Made by a program: the position numbers and the translations under genes. Below the pieces are notes generated by a model. The model did not search any database and was not told where the DNA came from. It worked only from the letters and a program-made list of their open reading frames with translations. A stretch of 31,389 nt of DNA. It comes from a virus. This document shows, one piece after another, positions 60-28,355 of the stretch. The stretch lies in the IMG/VR virus record IMGVR_UViG_3300032214_000879, positions 1 through 31,389 of that record. One strand, given 5' to 3'. Each line of letters opens with the position of its first letter. The first letter of the stretch is position 1.

Positions 60-293
60 ATGTCTAAAACAAGTATCCTACGATATCTTGGAAACATTCT
101 CCTCATTATTGGTTATCAAATCATGTTGTGGGGAGATTTTAAATGTGGACTACTGGTAAAGTTTATTGGTGGCGCTTTAACTATACCATTTGCAATTAAA
201 TTAAAACTCTACGATGTTTTGGTTTTATGTGCATTCTTTTCTGTGAATGAACTTGCAAAACTGTCCCAACTTTTCCTAGTTTCCCAAAACTAG
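60..293 (+). CDS. Small conserved cyanophage-type membrane protein
   Basis: A 77-residue protein, mostly hydrophobic. Residues about 8-25 and 28-45 form two membrane-like segments and residues about 48-62 a third weaker one, with a short polar tail. It resembles small unnamed inner-membrane proteins I associate with T4-like cyanophages, but I cannot assign a function. An in-frame ATG at 21 would add 13 residues (MTLKAHWSGAKPL). I prefer the ATG at 60 because the hydrophobic core begins soon after it, although its possible Shine-Dalgarno (GGGAG at 44-48) is rather distant. The stop codon lies inside the first hairpin of the repeat array downstream. Confidence 0.6.
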   Translation: MSKTSILRYLGNILLIIGYQIMLWGDFKCGLLVKFIGGALTIPFAIKLKLYDVLVLCAFFSVNELAKLSQLFLVSQN

Positions 294-11563: not shown

Positions 11564-12862
11564 ATGTATCAACTTATTGAAAAATTTTTAGCATCTTCGA
11601 AAGAAATTGAAGACAACATCTTCCCCTTCATTGCCAATAAGAAGAACTTCAATCCAGAAACTGATTCAGTTTATTACTCTGGACCTTATTGGGATGATAG
11701 TGAAATTATTGAAATCATTCACTCTGTAACTAAGGGCAAATGGTTGTCTTCTGGTGAAAAGGTTCATAAATTTGAACGTGAATTTTCAAAGAAGTTCAAA
11801 TTCAATCATTCTGTGATGGTGAACTCTGGTAGTTCTGCCAACCTTGTAATGTTTGCTGCACTTAAGAAGCACTTCGGGTGGAAAGACGGGGATGAAATTA
11901 TTGTTTGTGCCTGTGGATTTGCTACCACTATTGCCCCCATTGTCCAAAATGGATTGAAACCAGTTTTTGTTGACATTAACTGGGATGATCTTAATTGGGA
12001 TTTGGACGAGATTGAAAAGAAAATTACAAATAGAACAGTAGCAGCTATTTCCTCACCTGTTCTTGGTAATCCATATGACATTGGAAAATTTGTAGATCTT
12101 TGTCGCAGAAAGAGTATTGCTATTATTGCCGATAATTGTGATAGTCTCGGCAGTAAGTGGAATGGAAATTATCTGACTGATTATGCAGTTGCTGCATCCT
12201 GCTCTTTTTATCCTGCGCATCACCTTTGCACTATTGAAGGTGGTATGGTTTCGTCCAATGAAAAGGAAATCGTTGATCTTGCTCGTAGCTTTGCTTGGTG
12301 GGGACGTGATTGCTATTGTGTAGGCGCACAGAATCTTTTGTCTTGTGGAACTTGTGGAAAGCGTTTTGATCGTTGGTTGAAAGACTATGATGGAATCGTT
12401 GATCACAAATACATCTTTGCAAATATGGGTTATAATCTTAAGCCCCTAGATCTTCAAGGTGGAGTTGGATCCGTTCAATTGACTAAGTTTGAAGAGATTC
12501 ATGATCTGCGTAGGCAGAACAAGGAAAGGATTCAAACTATTCTTGAAAAGATTCCTGGTGTTCGTGTTGTAAACGAACTTCCTCAGGCAGAAACTAGTTG
12601 GTTTGGAGTTCCTACAATTTGTGATACCAAGGAATTAAAAGAGTCTCTGGTTTCTTATCTTGAAAAGAACAAAGTACAAACTCGTAATTATTTTGCTGGT
12701 AATATTCTTCTCCATCCTGGATATTCTCATCTAGATGATGCGCTGAAGTATCCAAAGGCAAATCAAGTTCTAGATAAGGTTTTCTTCCTAGGATGCTCTC
12801 CGACAATCAATGATGCAATGATTGATTACATTGATCAAGTAGTGACAAAGTTTATTGGTTGA
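11564..12862 (+). CDS. rfbH: CDP-4-keto-6-deoxyglucose 3-dehydrase type (RfbH/E1)
   Basis: A 432-residue DegT/DnrJ/EryC1-fold protein. The PLP lysine of aminotransferases is replaced by His in SFYPAHHLCTIEGG (His219-His220), the hallmark of the E1/ColD dehydrases that remove the C3 hydroxyl of 4-keto-6-deoxy sugars. Four cysteines match the E1 iron-sulfur arrangement: Cys192 in DNCDSLG, then after 57 residues Cys250 and Cys252 in GRDCYC, then Cys261 and Cys264 in SCGTCGKRF. This favours the CDP-sugar E1 enzyme over the cluster-free ColD. It would make a 3,6-dideoxyhexose precursor in the cytoplasm. The partner reductase (E3), CDP-glucose synthase and CDP-glucose 4,6-dehydratase are not seen here. 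Confidence 0.88.
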   Translation: MYQLIEKFLASSKEIEDNIFPFIANKKNFNPETDSVYYSGPYWDDSEIIEIIHSVTKGKWLSSGEKVHKFEREFSKKFKFNHSVMVNSGSSANLVMFAALKKHFGWKDGDEIIVCACGFATTIAPIVQNGLKPVFVDINWDDLNWDLDEIEKKITNRTVAAISSPVLGNPYDIGKFVDLCRRKSIAIIADNCDSLGSKWNGNYLTDYAVAASCSFYPAHHLCTIEGGMVSSNEKEIVDLARSFAWWGRDCYCVGAQNLLSCGTCGKRFDRWLKDYDGIVDHKYIFANMGYNLKPLDLQGGVGSVQLTKFEEIHDLRRQNKERIQTILEKIPGVRVVNELPQAETSWFGVPTICDTKELKESLVSYLEKNKVQTRNYFAGNILLHPGYSHLDDALKYPKANQVLDKVFFLGCSPTINDAMIDYIDQVVTKFIG

Positions 12863-20425: not shown

Positions 20426-21580
20426 ATGTCTAATAAATTATTGGATTTGGGTATTCAACCATTAGTAAATAATCTCCTTTGTACAAAAGAAGAATCTATT
20501 AATGCTAAAAAATATCCAATGGCGGCGACTATTGATGATAATCTTAAAATTCAATTAGATACTGCCATTCCATCAGAAGAATTGTATGAAAAATACTTAT
20601 ACCATTCTGCTGTAAACAAGCCATATGTTTATCATTGCCAAAGTATGTGGCATAGTATTAAACATCTTAAGCATAATACTGTAATTGATGTTGGTGGTAA
20701 TGACGGTACTTTACTAAAAGCATTCCGATCACAAACTAAGGATCCACTCAATTTAATTAACGTAGATGCATCTTCTTCATTTAGAGAAGAAAATCTTGAA
20801 GCAGGAATCGAATATGTAAATGATTACTTCAATGAAGATCTGGATCTTCCTAAGGCAGATATTATTACTTCGACAAATGTTTTTCAACACACTCCTGGAG
20901 TTGAAAAATTTCTTGCTGGAGTTAAAAAACATCTTGCTCCACATGGAGTTTGGGTTCTTGAATTTCCATATACACTAAGAACTTTTGAGACACTTCAATT
21001 TGATCAGTTTTATCATGAGCATTATTATTACTGGCTAGTAACACCTCTTGTCAAATTGTTTGACGAATATGGACTCCGTATTGTTAATACGGAAGAACAG
21101 ACAATTCATGGAGGAACTCTACGTCTTTGGATTTCTCATAAAGAATATTCAAATCCAACTGGAGCACCTGATGAATATTTAAAAGTAGAAAAGAAATTTG
21201 ACTTTTTTCTTGCATCTGAAAAAATTCATAAGAAAATTGTTAAAGATAAAAGCTGGATTAAAAATTTAAATGGTAAAGTAGCATTTTTTGGTGCTGCAGC
21301 TAAGGGGTGTGTTTATTTAAATGCACTTGATATTACTCTGAAAGATTTTCCAAATTCTTATATTGTTGATGATACTGTCAGCAAGCAAAATATGTTCGTT
21401 CCAGGAACTGGGTTCGAAGTTGTGGGTAGAGAAAGACTCTATGCAGAGCAACCAGAGAATCTAATTATTCTTGCTCATAACTTTAAAGATTATATTATCA
21501 AATCATTGCGTCCACATTACACTGGTAAAATTATTACCATGCTTCCAAGCGTTCAAATTGATCTTGGAGAAAATTACTAA
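20426..21580 (+). CDS. Sugar C-methyltransferase-like protein, zinc site lost
   Basis: A 384-residue protein resembling NovU/TylC3-type sugar C-methyltransferases. The N-terminal LLDLGIQPLVNNLL resembles the L-G-x-Q-P-L-x-N opening. VIDVGGNDGTLLKAF (about 89-103) is SAM motif I, and FHEHYYYW-like YHEHYYYWL near 193-201 contains the catalytic His-x-His region. KVAFFGAAAKGCVYLN near 285-300 and YIVDDTVSKQ mark the second Rossmann-like C-terminal domain. The cysteines of the usual N-terminal zinc-binding motif are absent, leaving only Cys19. It may methylate a keto-sugar from the SDR or E1 steps. It is the last gene of the glycan operon. Confidence 0.78.
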   Translation: MSNKLLDLGIQPLVNNLLCTKEESINAKKYPMAATIDDNLKIQLDTAIPSEELYEKYLYHSAVNKPYVYHCQSMWHSIKHLKHNTVIDVGGNDGTLLKAFRSQTKDPLNLINVDASSSFREENLEAGIEYVNDYFNEDLDLPKADIITSTNVFQHTPGVEKFLAGVKKHLAPHGVWVLEFPYTLRTFETLQFDQFYHEHYYYWLVTPLVKLFDEYGLRIVNTEEQTIHGGTLRLWISHKEYSNPTGAPDEYLKVEKKFDFFLASEKIHKKIVKDKSWIKNLNGKVAFFGAAAKGCVYLNALDITLKDFPNSYIVDDTVSKQNMFVPGTGFEVVGRERLYAEQPENLIILAHNFKDYIIKSLRPHYTGKIITMLPSVQIDLGENY

Positions 21581-21583
21581 AAG

Positions 21584-21678
21584 CTTAACCGAATCTTAAT
21601 TGACAGACTTAATACTGCTATGCTATGATACTTCTGGCTTAATAGTTTCTTAAGATTCAATTAAGATAATCTTTACAT
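21584..21678 (+). promoter_or_regulatory. Array of Pho-box-like repeats upstream of porin
   Basis: Eight-base CTTAA-type repeats occur with 3-base gaps (11-base period): CTTAACCG at 21584 and CTTAATTG at 21595; then CTTAATAG at 21638, CTTAAGAT at 21649, ATTAAGAT at 21660 and CTTTACAT at 21671. The known cyanobacterial Pho box is tandem YTTAAYYW units with 3-base spacers bound by PhoB/SphR. A further CTTAATAC at 21608 is out of phase. The same DNA also contains an 11-base inverted repeat (21593-21603 with 21657-21667), so another dimeric regulator or an RNA hairpin is possible. Confidence 0.65.
21600..21629 (+). promoter_or_regulatory. Candidate sigma-70 promoter for the porin
   Basis: TTGACA (21600-21605) and TATGAT (21624-21629) are separated by 18 bases. 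The -35 overlaps the end of the second Pho-box-like repeat. A start near 21637 would place the second repeat array in the leader, so regulation might be mixed, or a second promoter may lie closer to the gene. Confidence 0.55.
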
Positions 21679-21705
21679 TGTCGTTTAGTACAAAAAAACA
21701 TTTTT

Positions 21706-23223
21706 ATGAAAATCAAACAACTGATGCTTGCACCTGTTGCTCTTGGTATGATTGCTCCTGCTGTTGCGAATGCTGCAGATCTTAATATTGCAGCAGTCAA
21801 TCAATACTCCGCTGAGCAGGCAACAAGCGTCACTCAATTCTCTGATGTCCAACCTTCTGATTGGGCATATGGAGCACTCTCCGCCCTTGTAGAACGTTAT
21901 GGTTGCGTAGCAGGTTACCCTAACGGCACCTATGGTGGTGGTAAGGCAATGACTCGTTATGAGGCAGCTGCACTTCTGAATGCTTGTCTTGATCGGGTTA
22001 CTGAAGTTACTGATGAACTCAGTCGCCTTCAAAAAGAATTTGCTCAGGAACTTGCAGTAATTCGTGGTCGTGTTGATAAACTGGAAGCACAAGTTAGTGC
22101 TCTGGAAGCAACTCAATTCTCCACCACCACCAAACTGCGTGGTGAAACCAAGTGGGTTCTGGGCGGTTTGTCTTATGGCGGTGATCGTAAGAATGATTAT
22201 GATGCTCTCCGTGAAGCAGTTTCCTTCAACTATGATGTGAAACTGAACCTGGATACTTCTTTCACTGGCAAAGATCTGCTGCGTACTCAACTTCGTGCTG
22301 GTAACTTTGATGACAGTGGTTTCGGTGCTGCTCCTACCCCTCTCACCAAACTGGATGCTGGTTTCCAAGAAAACCTTGGTAATGCTGATGGCGGTGATGT
22401 AGTTGCAATTAATCGTTTGTACTACAAGTTCCCTGCTGGTAAGGATGTAACCATTACTGCTGGTCCTCGTGTTCGTCAAGATGACATTCTGCCTGTGTGG
22501 CCTTCTGTCTACACTGCTGATAAGATTCTGAACATCTTCCAGTTCAACGGTGCTCCTGGTGCCTACAGCAAAGTTCTGGGTGGTGGTTTTGGTGCTTCGG
22601 TTAAGAAAGGTGCTTGGACTCTTGGCGGTGCCTATGTTGCAGGTGATGCAGACAAGGGTGATAGTGCTGAAGGTGGTATGTTCAACGGCAACTCTGCTGC
22701 TTCTACCACTGCTCAACTTGCTTACACCACTAAGAACTGGAACCTGACTGGTGCCTATACTTATTCCAACAATGGTGTAAGTATTCAAGGTACTCCTACT
22801 CTGACTTCTGCACTTCCTAATAGTGCAACTGGTGGGCAGACTAACTCGTTCTCTCTTGCTGGTTACTGGCAACCTTCTACCTCTGGTATTATTCCTTCAA
22901 TCTCTGCTGGTTGGGGTTATAATAACTCTGGTTATACTCAAGGTGGTGATACTATTTCTCAGTCCTGGTACACTGGTTTGGTTTGGAAGGATGTACTTGC
23001 TAAGGGTAATGCTCTTGGTTTTGCAGTTGGGCAACCTACCTTTGTTACTAAGCAGAACGATGTAAATGCTCAAGATGGCAACTATGCTTTTGAGGCATAT
23101 TACAAGATGCAAGTTACTGATAACATCGCTGTAACTCCTGCTGTGTTCTATCTGAGCAATCCTACTGGAAACGATGGGCTTGATACCTTCGGTGCTCTGG
23201 TTCAGACAACCTTCAAGTTCTGA
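21706..23223 (+). CDS. Cyanobacterial SLH-domain outer-membrane porin
   Basis: A 505-residue protein. Residues 1-23 form a signal peptide ending ANA. An SLH domain follows (FSDVQPSDWAYGALSALVERYGC at about 45-67 in two parts, then YPNGTYGGGKAMTRYEAAALLN), then a coiled segment (LSRLQKEFAQELAVIRGRVDKLEAQVSALE in the same sense), then a beta-barrel of alternating Gly and aromatic strands ending in Phe. This is the architecture of cyanobacterial Som-type porins, in which SLH binds peptidoglycan and the barrel passes small solutes. The gene looks clearly richer in G+C than the flanking glycan genes, suggesting capture from a host. With the Pho-box-like array upstream, a phosphate-stress porin is the best guess. 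Confidence 0.88.
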   Translation: MKIKQLMLAPVALGMIAPAVANAADLNIAAVNQYSAEQATSVTQFSDVQPSDWAYGALSALVERYGCVAGYPNGTYGGGKAMTRYEAAALLNACLDRVTEVTDELSRLQKEFAQELAVIRGRVDKLEAQVSALEATQFSTTTKLRGETKWVLGGLSYGGDRKNDYDALREAVSFNYDVKLNLDTSFTGKDLLRTQLRAGNFDDSGFGAAPTPLTKLDAGFQENLGNADGGDVVAINRLYYKFPAGKDVTITAGPRVRQDDILPVWPSVYTADKILNIFQFNGAPGAYSKVLGGGFGASVKKGAWTLGGAYVAGDADKGDSAEGGMFNGNSAASTTAQLAYTTKNWNLTGAYTYSNNGVSIQGTPTLTSALPNSATGGQTNSFSLAGYWQPSTSGIIPSISAGWGYNNSGYTQGGDTISQSWYTGLVWKDVLAKGNALGFAVGQPTFVTKQNDVNAQDGNYAFEAYYKMQVTDNIAVTPAVFYLSNPTGNDGLDTFGALVQTTFKF

Positions 23224-23248: not shown

Positions 23249-23274
23249 GGGGTGCTTGACACCCCTTTCTTTTT
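23249..23274 (+). terminator. Terminator after the porin
   Basis: GGGGTG (23249-23254) pairs with CACCCC (23260-23265) around the loop CTTGA, followed by TTTCTTTTT. It lies 26 bases after the porin stop. The -35 box of the following promoter is built into its loop and right arm. Confidence 0.82.
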
Positions 23275-23284
23275 CCTATATAAT
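23256..23284 (+). promoter_or_regulatory. Perfect-consensus sigma-70 promoter for the hli cassette
   Basis: TTGACA (23256-23261), exactly 17 bases, then TATAAT (23279-23284). Both hexamers match consensus fully. The -35 is inside the terminator hairpin and the T-tract is part of the spacer. Transcription would start near 23291, about 20 bases before the Hli start codon. This should be read by unmodified host polymerase early in infection. Confidence 0.85.
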
Positions 23285-26189: not shown

Positions 26190-28355
26190 ATGTCTTACGC
26201 TAAGAAGGCGCTTGTTGTAGCGTCTGCTCTTTTAATGGGAGCACCAACTGCATTTGCAGATACGATTTCTGGTACAGATTTTGAGTCTGGAAATACTTCG
26301 GGATGGAATACTGGAACTCAGACGGGAATATTAGACAGCACAATTACTGGGCAGGGAACTGGTGTTAGTGTTGTTGATAATCCAGTAATTTTCAATGCAC
26401 CTTCTCACGGAGCAGTAGGAAGTCCAACTCTCCAAGATGGTTCTCCTAATCCTTATCACGCACCTGCGGTAACACCATCTACTTGGGAATTTGCACCATA
26501 CGGAAATGCTGGTGCTGCACTGCAACCAAATGGGCAGCAGACATTTAACCAAGCAACAGAAGCACTTGGATTAACATCAGCAGAAAATCAAGAAATCAAA
26601 ACTCTTCTTCAACAGCAGCAACAAGCATCTGGATTAGGAAATCCAAATCCAACTGATGCTGCTTGGATTACAAAGTCAGTTACATTGGAAACTGGTAAAG
26701 TTTATACAATGTCTTGGAACTACATTGGAACTGATTATGTTCCTTTCAATGACGGTTCTATTACATCACTTGTTTATCAAGGAACGGGTTCATCTCCAAC
26801 AGTAACAGTTAATAATCAACTTCAAAACTATGCACTGCTTGGATTTACTAATCCAGGAACTGGTGATTATTCCACAGGAACTTATGGTTCTACTGGATGG
26901 CAGTATTCAACATATCAAGTAGGTGCTAATGGTGATTATCTCTTAGGATTTGCGGTATTCAACCTTGGAGATACTGCATTATCACCAGTTCTTTTAGTTG
27001 ATAGTCAACCAGGAACTGTGACAAAGAATGGTGAAACATTTGCTAGTGTTGCTCCAAACAATCCAGATGCACCATCTGTTGATGAAGTAGCACCAACTCC
27101 AACTCCTGAACCTACACCAGAACCAGAACCCACTCCCGAACCTACACCAGAACCAGATCCAACTCCTGAACCTACACCAGAACCAGATCCAACTCCTGAA
27201 CCTACACCAGAACCAGAACCCACTCCTGAACCAGATCCAACTCCTACACCAGAACCTACGCCAGATCCAACACCTACACCAGATCCAACTCCTGAACCCA
27301 CTCCAGATCCAACTCCTGAACCTACACCAGAACCTCAACCACCAACATTATTAAACTCTGTGACTGTTCCTGCACCAGGACTTCCAGTTGTCGTTACTAC
27401 CGAAGTAACTCATACTGCAACAGAAGGAAATGGAGTTCAGAAGATTAGAAGAGATTTTGCAACTACATCTCAAACTCCTTTATTGCAGCAAGATACTTAT
27501 AGTGATAATAGTGTAGTTTATTCTTTACTTCTTTCTGTTGATACACAAAATACTCATGATGTTCTTTCTGGTCGCGTAGATCAACACGAAGTTTTAGATA
27601 AGATTGGTGGTGGATTACAAAACCTTCTCATCCACGAACCAACTAAACCTACTACAGATAAAGTAAGAGTATTCAGCAACAACTATTATTCCTGGTCTCA
27701 CGGTGATTATGGATACTCTGGTAAGTCACTGATTATTGGTGGTGGATTAGAAATTGACATCAAACCAACTTGGACTATTGGTGCTCAGTATAATAATGTT
27801 AATATTGATTTAGGTGGTGTTGATAGCACTTCTAATCTTGTTAAGAGTCATTATGGTGTGTTTAATATGTTCCGTGGAAATACATTCTCACTCTTAACTA
27901 ATGCTGGTTTCTCCCAGAACAAATATAATGTATCCAGAAATGTTCAGGGTATCTTTAATAATGAAAGTTCAACACAAGGAAAAGAGTGGTTTGTTAATAA
28001 CAGATTATTCTGGCATCTCAATAAGAATGTAACTCCATTCGTTGGATACACTGTTGGCAATTATCAGAGAGATGGCTTTACTGAAAGTGGTTCCATTCAA
28101 TCTAGAAGAACCGTAGATGCTATAAACAAAACTTCACATTATGGTGAGGTTGGTCTAAATATTTCCAATCGTTTTGGTGGTAAGAAAAAGAACTTATTTG
28201 GCATAACTGTCGGTGGTTCTTATCAAACCAGTGGATTAGTTGAAGCATCTGCATCTGTTGATTATAAAGAGATGGTGATTATTGAAGGAATACATCAGAT
28301 TAATGATGGTGTTTCGAATACAGTAGTGTCGGCAAAACTTCAATTTAAGTTCTAA
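26190..28355 (+). CDS. Large secreted protein: lectin-like head, TPEP stalk, barrel-like tail
   Basis: A 721-residue protein. Residues 1-23 are a signal peptide ending AFA. Residues about 25-300 form a Gly/Ser/Thr-rich head (TDFESGNTSGWN), similar in feel to carbohydrate-binding or PEP-CTERM-type exported domains. Residues about 302-385 are a Thr-Pro-Glu-Pro/Asp-Pro repeat stalk. From about 430 the protein is a series of amphipathic strands (GGGLEIDIKPTWTIGAQYNN, FVGYTVGNYQRDG) ending VSAKLQFKF, the C-terminal Phe signature of outer-membrane barrels; this resembles an autotransporter barrel. AGAGGA at 26178-26183 is the ribosome site. A phage-encoded outer-membrane protein is inferred; a virion fibre is the alternative. 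Confidence 0.68.
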   Translation: MSYAKKALVVASALLMGAPTAFADTISGTDFESGNTSGWNTGTQTGILDSTITGQGTGVSVVDNPVIFNAPSHGAVGSPTLQDGSPNPYHAPAVTPSTWEFAPYGNAGAALQPNGQQTFNQATEALGLTSAENQEIKTLLQQQQQASGLGNPNPTDAAWITKSVTLETGKVYTMSWNYIGTDYVPFNDGSITSLVYQGTGSSPTVTVNNQLQNYALLGFTNPGTGDYSTGTYGSTGWQYSTYQVGANGDYLLGFAVFNLGDTALSPVLLVDSQPGTVTKNGETFASVAPNNPDAPSVDEVAPTPTPEPTPEPEPTPEPTPEPDPTPEPTPEPDPTPEPTPEPEPTPEPDPTPTPEPTPDPTPTPDPTPEPTPDPTPEPTPEPQPPTLLNSVTVPAPGLPVVVTTEVTHTATEGNGVQKIRRDFATTSQTPLLQQDTYSDNSVVYSLLLSVDTQNTHDVLSGRVDQHEVLDKIGGGLQNLLIHEPTKPTTDKVRVFSNNYYSWSHGDYGYSGKSLIIGGGLEIDIKPTWTIGAQYNNVNIDLGGVDSTSNLVKSHYGVFNMFRGNTFSLLTNAGFSQNKYNVSRNVQGIFNNESSTQGKEWFVNNRLFWHLNKNVTPFVGYTVGNYQRDGFTESGSIQSRRTVDAINKTSHYGEVGLNISNRFGGKKKNLFGITVGGSYQTSGLVEASASVDYKEMVIIEGIHQINDGVSNTVVSAKLQFKF
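27094..27341 (+). repeat. Tandem repeat encoding Thr-Pro-Glu-Pro stalk
   Basis: Imperfect 12- and 30-base units of the form CCAACTCCTGAACCT/ACACCAGAACCA repeat for about 250 bases inside the secreted protein gene and encode alternating TPEP and PDPTP. Length variation by slippage is expected. Confidence 0.9.

Follow-up and report, generated by a model that had tools for sequence, protein, structure and literature searches.

Cyanophages place pstS and some other genes under the control of host PhoB. The closest known case to the locus described here is the pstS operon of the Prochlorococcus phage P-SSM2, which is reported to be under host PhoBR control (PMC10976474), and whose promoter reads CTTAACCT-tct-CTTAGTTTACA-N16-TATAAT. 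In the phage S-PM2d, host PhoB binds at replication and hypothetical genes whose boxes are degenerate, and the predicted Pho boxes of this phage were unreliable in gel shifts (PMC10976474). The cyanobacterial Pho regulon is itself characterized by 8-bp CTTAA-type repeats with 3-bp linkers (Su et al. 2007). It includes a porin gene of Synechocystis, slr1908, whose Fe-selective product is induced through the binding of PhoB; in this organism binding by PhoB needed three TTAA cores (PMC11126600).

Here we analyze a viral sequence of 31,389 nucleotides (hereafter the window), in which a sigma-70 promoter with a Pho-type box precedes a gene for an outer-membrane porin. The window is from a virus of freshwater cyanobacteria; its hli, peroxiredoxin, lysozyme and other genes and its DNA matches place it among the Synechococcus phages, the closest DNA matches being the Synechococcus phages DSL-LC02 and DSL-LC03 (80-82%).

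The porin locus shares the basic layout of the P-SSM2 operon. In both, a repeat of the box lies over the -35 element, the P-SSM2 box being CTTAACCT-tct-CTTAGTTT with 27 bp from its last repeat to the -10, and in both the first gene codes for a barrel-like protein, which in P-SSM2 is a small secreted DUF680 protein followed by pstS. The differences are that P-SSM2 has this small protein instead of a 505-aa SomB porin, and that its promoter shows three recognisable repeats, has TTTACA as a poorer -35 and lacks an inverted copy of the box after the -10. With the cyanobacterial Pho regulon the locus shares the 8-bp repeats, the 3-bp linkers and, as in slr1908, a porin gene as the target; however, the site in the window is phage-borne, has two repeats rather than three, and is combined with a consensus -35 and an inverted second site. 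The S-PM2d genes are alike in being phage promoters that use host PhoB, as is proposed here for the porin, but in the window the target is an outer-membrane porin and the box is near-consensus and conserved. While phage use of host PhoB is thus already known, the target gene and the two-box layout appear to be new; a literature search, which covered few subscription papers, found no paper on a phage porin controlled by a Pho box.

Architecture of the porin promoter

The porin gene (21706..23223, + strand) is preceded by 125 bases that contain a sigma-70 promoter, CTTAA repeats paired at 21584/21595 and, over 21638-21665, the array CTTAAT-CTTAAG-ATTAAG. The promoter comprises a -35 TTGACA (21600..21605, + strand), which is kept in relatives, and a -10 TATGAT (21624..21629, + strand) with a TG ahead of it at 21621-21622; together they amount to 11/12 sigma-70 matches. 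The pair had been noticed from the letters alone in an earlier note on this DNA, and it is indeed exact, with CTTAACCG at 21584 and CTTAATTG at 21595. Read as a box, CTTAACCG-aat-CTTAATTG (21584..21602, + strand) takes the activator position: its second repeat overlaps the -35 and starts 29 bp from the -10, a spacing in keeping with Pho promoters. Against YTTAAYYW repeats with a 3-bp linker, of which a Pho box has at least two in tandem, it has 2 mismatches in 16 scored positions. Downstream of the porin stands a terminator-like hairpin (23249..23265, + strand), overlapped by an hli promoter (TTGACA-17-TATAAT, 23256-23284) with a 12/12 sigma-70 match, and therefore the box probably controls the porin alone in the window.

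The motif CTTAN7CTTA was observed 3 times in the window against 1.47 expected, so that its count by itself is not special, but all 3 sites of the 31-kb window precede the porin, within 82 bases. Local dinucleotide shuffling of 21581-21705 gave three copies of CTTAA-N6-CTTAA in 0 of 20,000 trials, and three TTAA at 11-base steps, which occur at a single place in the window, in 0.12%. We built a Pho-box matrix from 27 published triplets (Su et al. 2007, PMC1906773 Table 1). A position-matrix scan of this kind was what the earlier note had advised, and it bore out the pair, which at 13.8 bits was the top two-repeat match on both strands of the window, and did not bear out the array, whose + strand triplet at 21638 ranked 11th. 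The score of 13.8 bits was reached by 26% of shuffled whole windows; when the 125-base intergenic region alone was shuffled, the figure was 0.33% (local p 0.003). A possible third repeat, ATTACTAA at 21573, is weak, and the three-repeat score is lower than the two-repeat score. The small number of good repeats in the upstream site, two, counts against it as a PhoB site; a third repeat is also missing from the pstS boxes of freshwater phages, and hence may not be required here.

The earlier note had stressed the array, read as four CTTAA-type repeats at 21638-21678, but the analysis does not support it as the main box. The 11-base phase holds for CTTAATAG (21638), CTTAAGAT (21649), ATTAAGAT (21660) and CTTTACAT (21671), but CTTAA is found in the first two only, the third having ATTAA and the fourth CTTTA. 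We rejected a three-repeat + strand Pho box at 21638, because its score is weak and it lies on the wrong side of the -10: the array begins about 8 nt 3' of the -10, whereas an activating box would lie upstream of it on the coding strand. Read on the minus strand, the triplet in the same DNA ranks 4th, and the array is more aptly described as the upstream box repeated in inverse orientation, CTTAATTG-aat-CTTAAGAA-act-ATTAAGCC (21636..21665, - strand). The 11-base inverted repeat that the earlier note also reported is perfect, with a left arm ATCTTAATTGA at 21593..21603 and a right arm TCAATTAAGAT at 21657..21667 (both given on the + strand), and is nested in a 16-base pair, 21584-21599 / 21650-21665, that is 88% complementary. 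In most loci the first half-site likewise comes 7-9 nt after the -10, and from its start about 8 nt past this element the array is seen to cover the start region.

Further downstream, the element TGTCGTTTAGTAC (21679..21691, + strand) is kept in most relatives whatever the promoter type. In the leaders of L001-L082, TGTCGTTTAGTAC or TGTCCTATAGTAC stands directly before the porin start codon with any promoter, which suggests a conserved element of translation or RNA stability. Additionally, in many relatives (L005-L082) the DNA that separates the inverted box from the start codon holds a TAAATAA resembling a T4 late promoter and then a small hairpin, at about 60-100 nt from the porin start; this stretch is missing in the window.

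Conservation, linkage to pstS and apparent promoter turnover

Relatives were collected from IMG/VR by protein search alone, yielding 79 loci. As these are mostly metagenomic fragments, many of them near-identical, locus counts overstate independence and counts of distinct promoters are to be preferred. Counting the window, the promoter could be read in 71 porin loci; the Pho-type box is present in 52 of them, and the inverted downstream copy accompanies it in 49/52 box-bearing loci as against 3/19 box-less ones. Among the relatives, 28 of 43 distinct porin promoters have the box at a fixed offset with at least 8 bits, its first repeat starting exactly 16 nt ahead of TTGACA; this figure is made up of 22 porin promoters counted directly and 6 with leaders longer than 160 nt that were moved from the 'other' class. 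The remaining 203 TTGAC..TAnnnT sites of these loci served as a control, and the box was absent from all of them, the maximum score being 1.8 bits. One branch has variable linkers (GTT, TTT, AGT, GAT, ATT, TAT), while CTTAACC and CTTAA remain constant, as expected of a site recognized by a repeat-reading protein. A scan of IMG/VR DNA for CTTAACCNAATCTTARTTGACA recovered 47 stretches, nearly all 5' of this porin; a scan with CTTAACCNNNNCTTAACC was left out of all counts.

Several copies of the box stand after tRNA genes. Two exact porin-type boxes after a tRNA precede non-porin genes, at 12123-12144 (-) of L093, before a small ORF upstream of a dps-like gene, and at 214-235 (-) of L117, before a secreted protein whose start, MFKFAIAAVAAAPFLATAAFAGPYVN, resembles that of the P-SSM2 DUF680 proteins. 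No box was found in front of the SLH protein of S-PM2 or the porins of S-CREM1 and S-SRM01. Genes 169 and hli 172 of S-PM2, just 3' of its SLH barrel protein, are reported to be up under phosphate depletion (PMC10976474); we found no Pho box in the p168-p172 region (L003 4932-6774).

A connection to phosphate is provided by gene order. No pstS is present in the window itself, but in 19 fetched relative loci pstS lies 3' of the porin on the same strand, often followed by dps. All six porin-pstS gaps examined contain a Pho-type box, and 3 of these 6 are nearly identical to that of the porin (CTTAACC[TA]-NNN-CTTAGTGGAC, compared with CTTAACCA-aat-CTTAGTTGAC). The distance from the start of the last repeat to the -10 is 28-29 for the porin (29 in the window), 28 for freshwater phage pstS, 27-28 for those marine phage omp-pstS operons with a clear box, and about 28 for most boxes of host pstS genes in Cyanobium-family genomes, the last read by eye; the operon promoters of P-SSM4 and S-SSM7 offered no clear case of this spacing. 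These host pstS promoters carry boxes, most of the clear ones at approximately 11-22 bits. The marine cyanophage order is similar, with the gene of a DUF680 barrel-like protein first, pstS second and frequently hli or phoA after it, and in several genomes of Cyanobium-family hosts a SomB-type porin is found directly beside pstS (G001 C32 (L253), G046 C1, G073 C1, G065 C1 and G060 C85). The start could be placed in 2 of 7 pstS-adjacent host porins, and these two showed no convincing box.

The distribution of the box over a tree of 50 porins takes 8 changes to explain, and the starred branches force at least 5. The promoter of the window resembles the L039 promoter most (82% over 88 bases), which stands before a porin only 54% identical, whereas L004, the nearest porin relative of the window (98%), has an unrelated promoter (58%) without the box. 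The promoter hence seems to move between porin lineages; the absence of the box from so close a relative also counts against a PhoB site. Copying of the promoter from a host porin gene was considered and rejected, as most of the sampled host porin promoters lack a Pho box, L346, L324 and L288 being exceptions. An invertible promoter between the inverted repeats was likewise discarded, the orientation being the same in every locus read. Box-bearing and box-less promoters stand before porins that are near-identical (up to 98%), and on these natural matched pairs the benefit of host-controlled regulation could be tested directly.

Regulation and substrate of the porin

A Pho-type box in front of a phage SLH/OprB porin, as the earlier note had proposed, is by comparative criteria much the best reading of 21584-21602, given its offset in relatives, the pstS boxes and the spacing. 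Box conservation, the pstS boxes and the shared spacing to the -10 similarly lead us to believe that the segment is probably a working host-PhoB site. Under this proposal, the porin would be transcribed from a sigma-70 promoter whose -35 (21600) is overlapped by the two-repeat Pho box. In a phosphate-starved host, phosphorylated PhoB (SphR) would bind the box and recruit host RNA polymerase, raising porin transcription early in infection. The porin would then add outer-membrane permeability for scarce nutrients, most likely phosphate, as a step that precedes the host or phage Pst system. Several points speak against it: the strong -35/-10 could also work without PhoB, the window has no pstS of its own, a Pho box is missing from most of the sampled host porin promoters, and Pho-box predictions in phage S-PM2d have proved unreliable in gel shifts. 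If the proposal is true, there are freshwater phages that bring along the outer-membrane as well as the periplasmic step of nutrient uptake and time them by host starvation.

The target is an SLH-barrel porin, Pfam OprB (78 bits) and SLH (40 bits) both scoring above their cut-offs. The protein also matches the NCBIfam model NF033921, 'iron uptake porin', with 307.5 bits against a cut-off of 100, which places it in the SomB family. That phosphate enters across the outer membrane via the porin is plausible given the synteny with pstS in phages and hosts, and we put the chances that the porin serves phosphate in particular at roughly even. A real PhoB site before a porin that mainly admits iron, or nutrients in general, like slr1908, is possible though somewhat doubtful. 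The score of 307 bits to the iron uptake family, the PhoB-bound and PhoB-induced precedent of the Fe-selective slr1908 (PMC11126600), and the presence of dps, a ferritin-family gene, after the porin in many relatives are consistent with it. On the other hand, a family name is not a tested substrate, and the linked transport gene in phages and hosts alike is pstS and not an iron gene.

The inverted site may act through PhoB, as a brake or a loop partner, or through another protein; it is present at the porin and absent from the pstS boxes read. One tentative scheme, which we consider rather unlikely, is a two-site PhoB switch in which the upstream site activates and the inverted site acts as a brake or by looping, so that porin is made in a pulse or up to a ceiling, the cassette coming and going as a unit through promoter swaps between porin lineages. 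It is improbable that the inverted sites are instead operators of another OmpR-type host regulator or of a phage repressor, closing the promoter from both sides. Such operators would accord with the near-constant inverted copy over the start region of box-bearing loci, with an AAT linker that is also kept in one branch, and with the matching of each arm to its own partner slightly above that to swapped arms (p 0.008, relatedness not removed). Yet the upstream site shares its layout and spacing with host and phage pstS Pho boxes, and the same box precedes pstS without any downstream copy.

That the box is a generic element of early promoters in these phages, or a product of chance in intergenic DNA rich in A and T, is very improbable: more than a quarter of whole-window shuffles reach the score of the pair and several copies follow tRNA genes, but the empty control of 203 promoter-like sites largely refutes it, and the CTTAACCNAATCTTARTTGACA stretches of IMG/VR stand nearly all before this one porin. 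Least probable of all is an RNA hairpin or attenuator in the leader, which the earlier note had offered as an alternative on account of the perfect inverted repeat: the predicted fold of a read-through transcript has -22.1 kcal/mol (z -1.75), but transcription starts downstream of the left arm, the leader of the porin's own transcript is less stable than its shuffles (z +1.34), the linkers of one branch are unpaired and 20 leaders give no consensus fold. An Rfam search likewise had no match in the porin leader, and compensatory pairing between the arms was set aside, as the excess was small and confounded by relatedness.

Two other features of the window were observed apart from the porin locus. 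At 26190-28355 it encodes a secreted protein of 721 aa that has weak family matches only; this protein contains a long PTPEPTPEPD repeat, and its C-terminus is barrel-like in look, as in autotransporters. At 319-416 there is a cis-regulatory wcaG RNA (Rfam RF01761, 103.7 bits), which precedes a cluster of sugar-epimerase genes.
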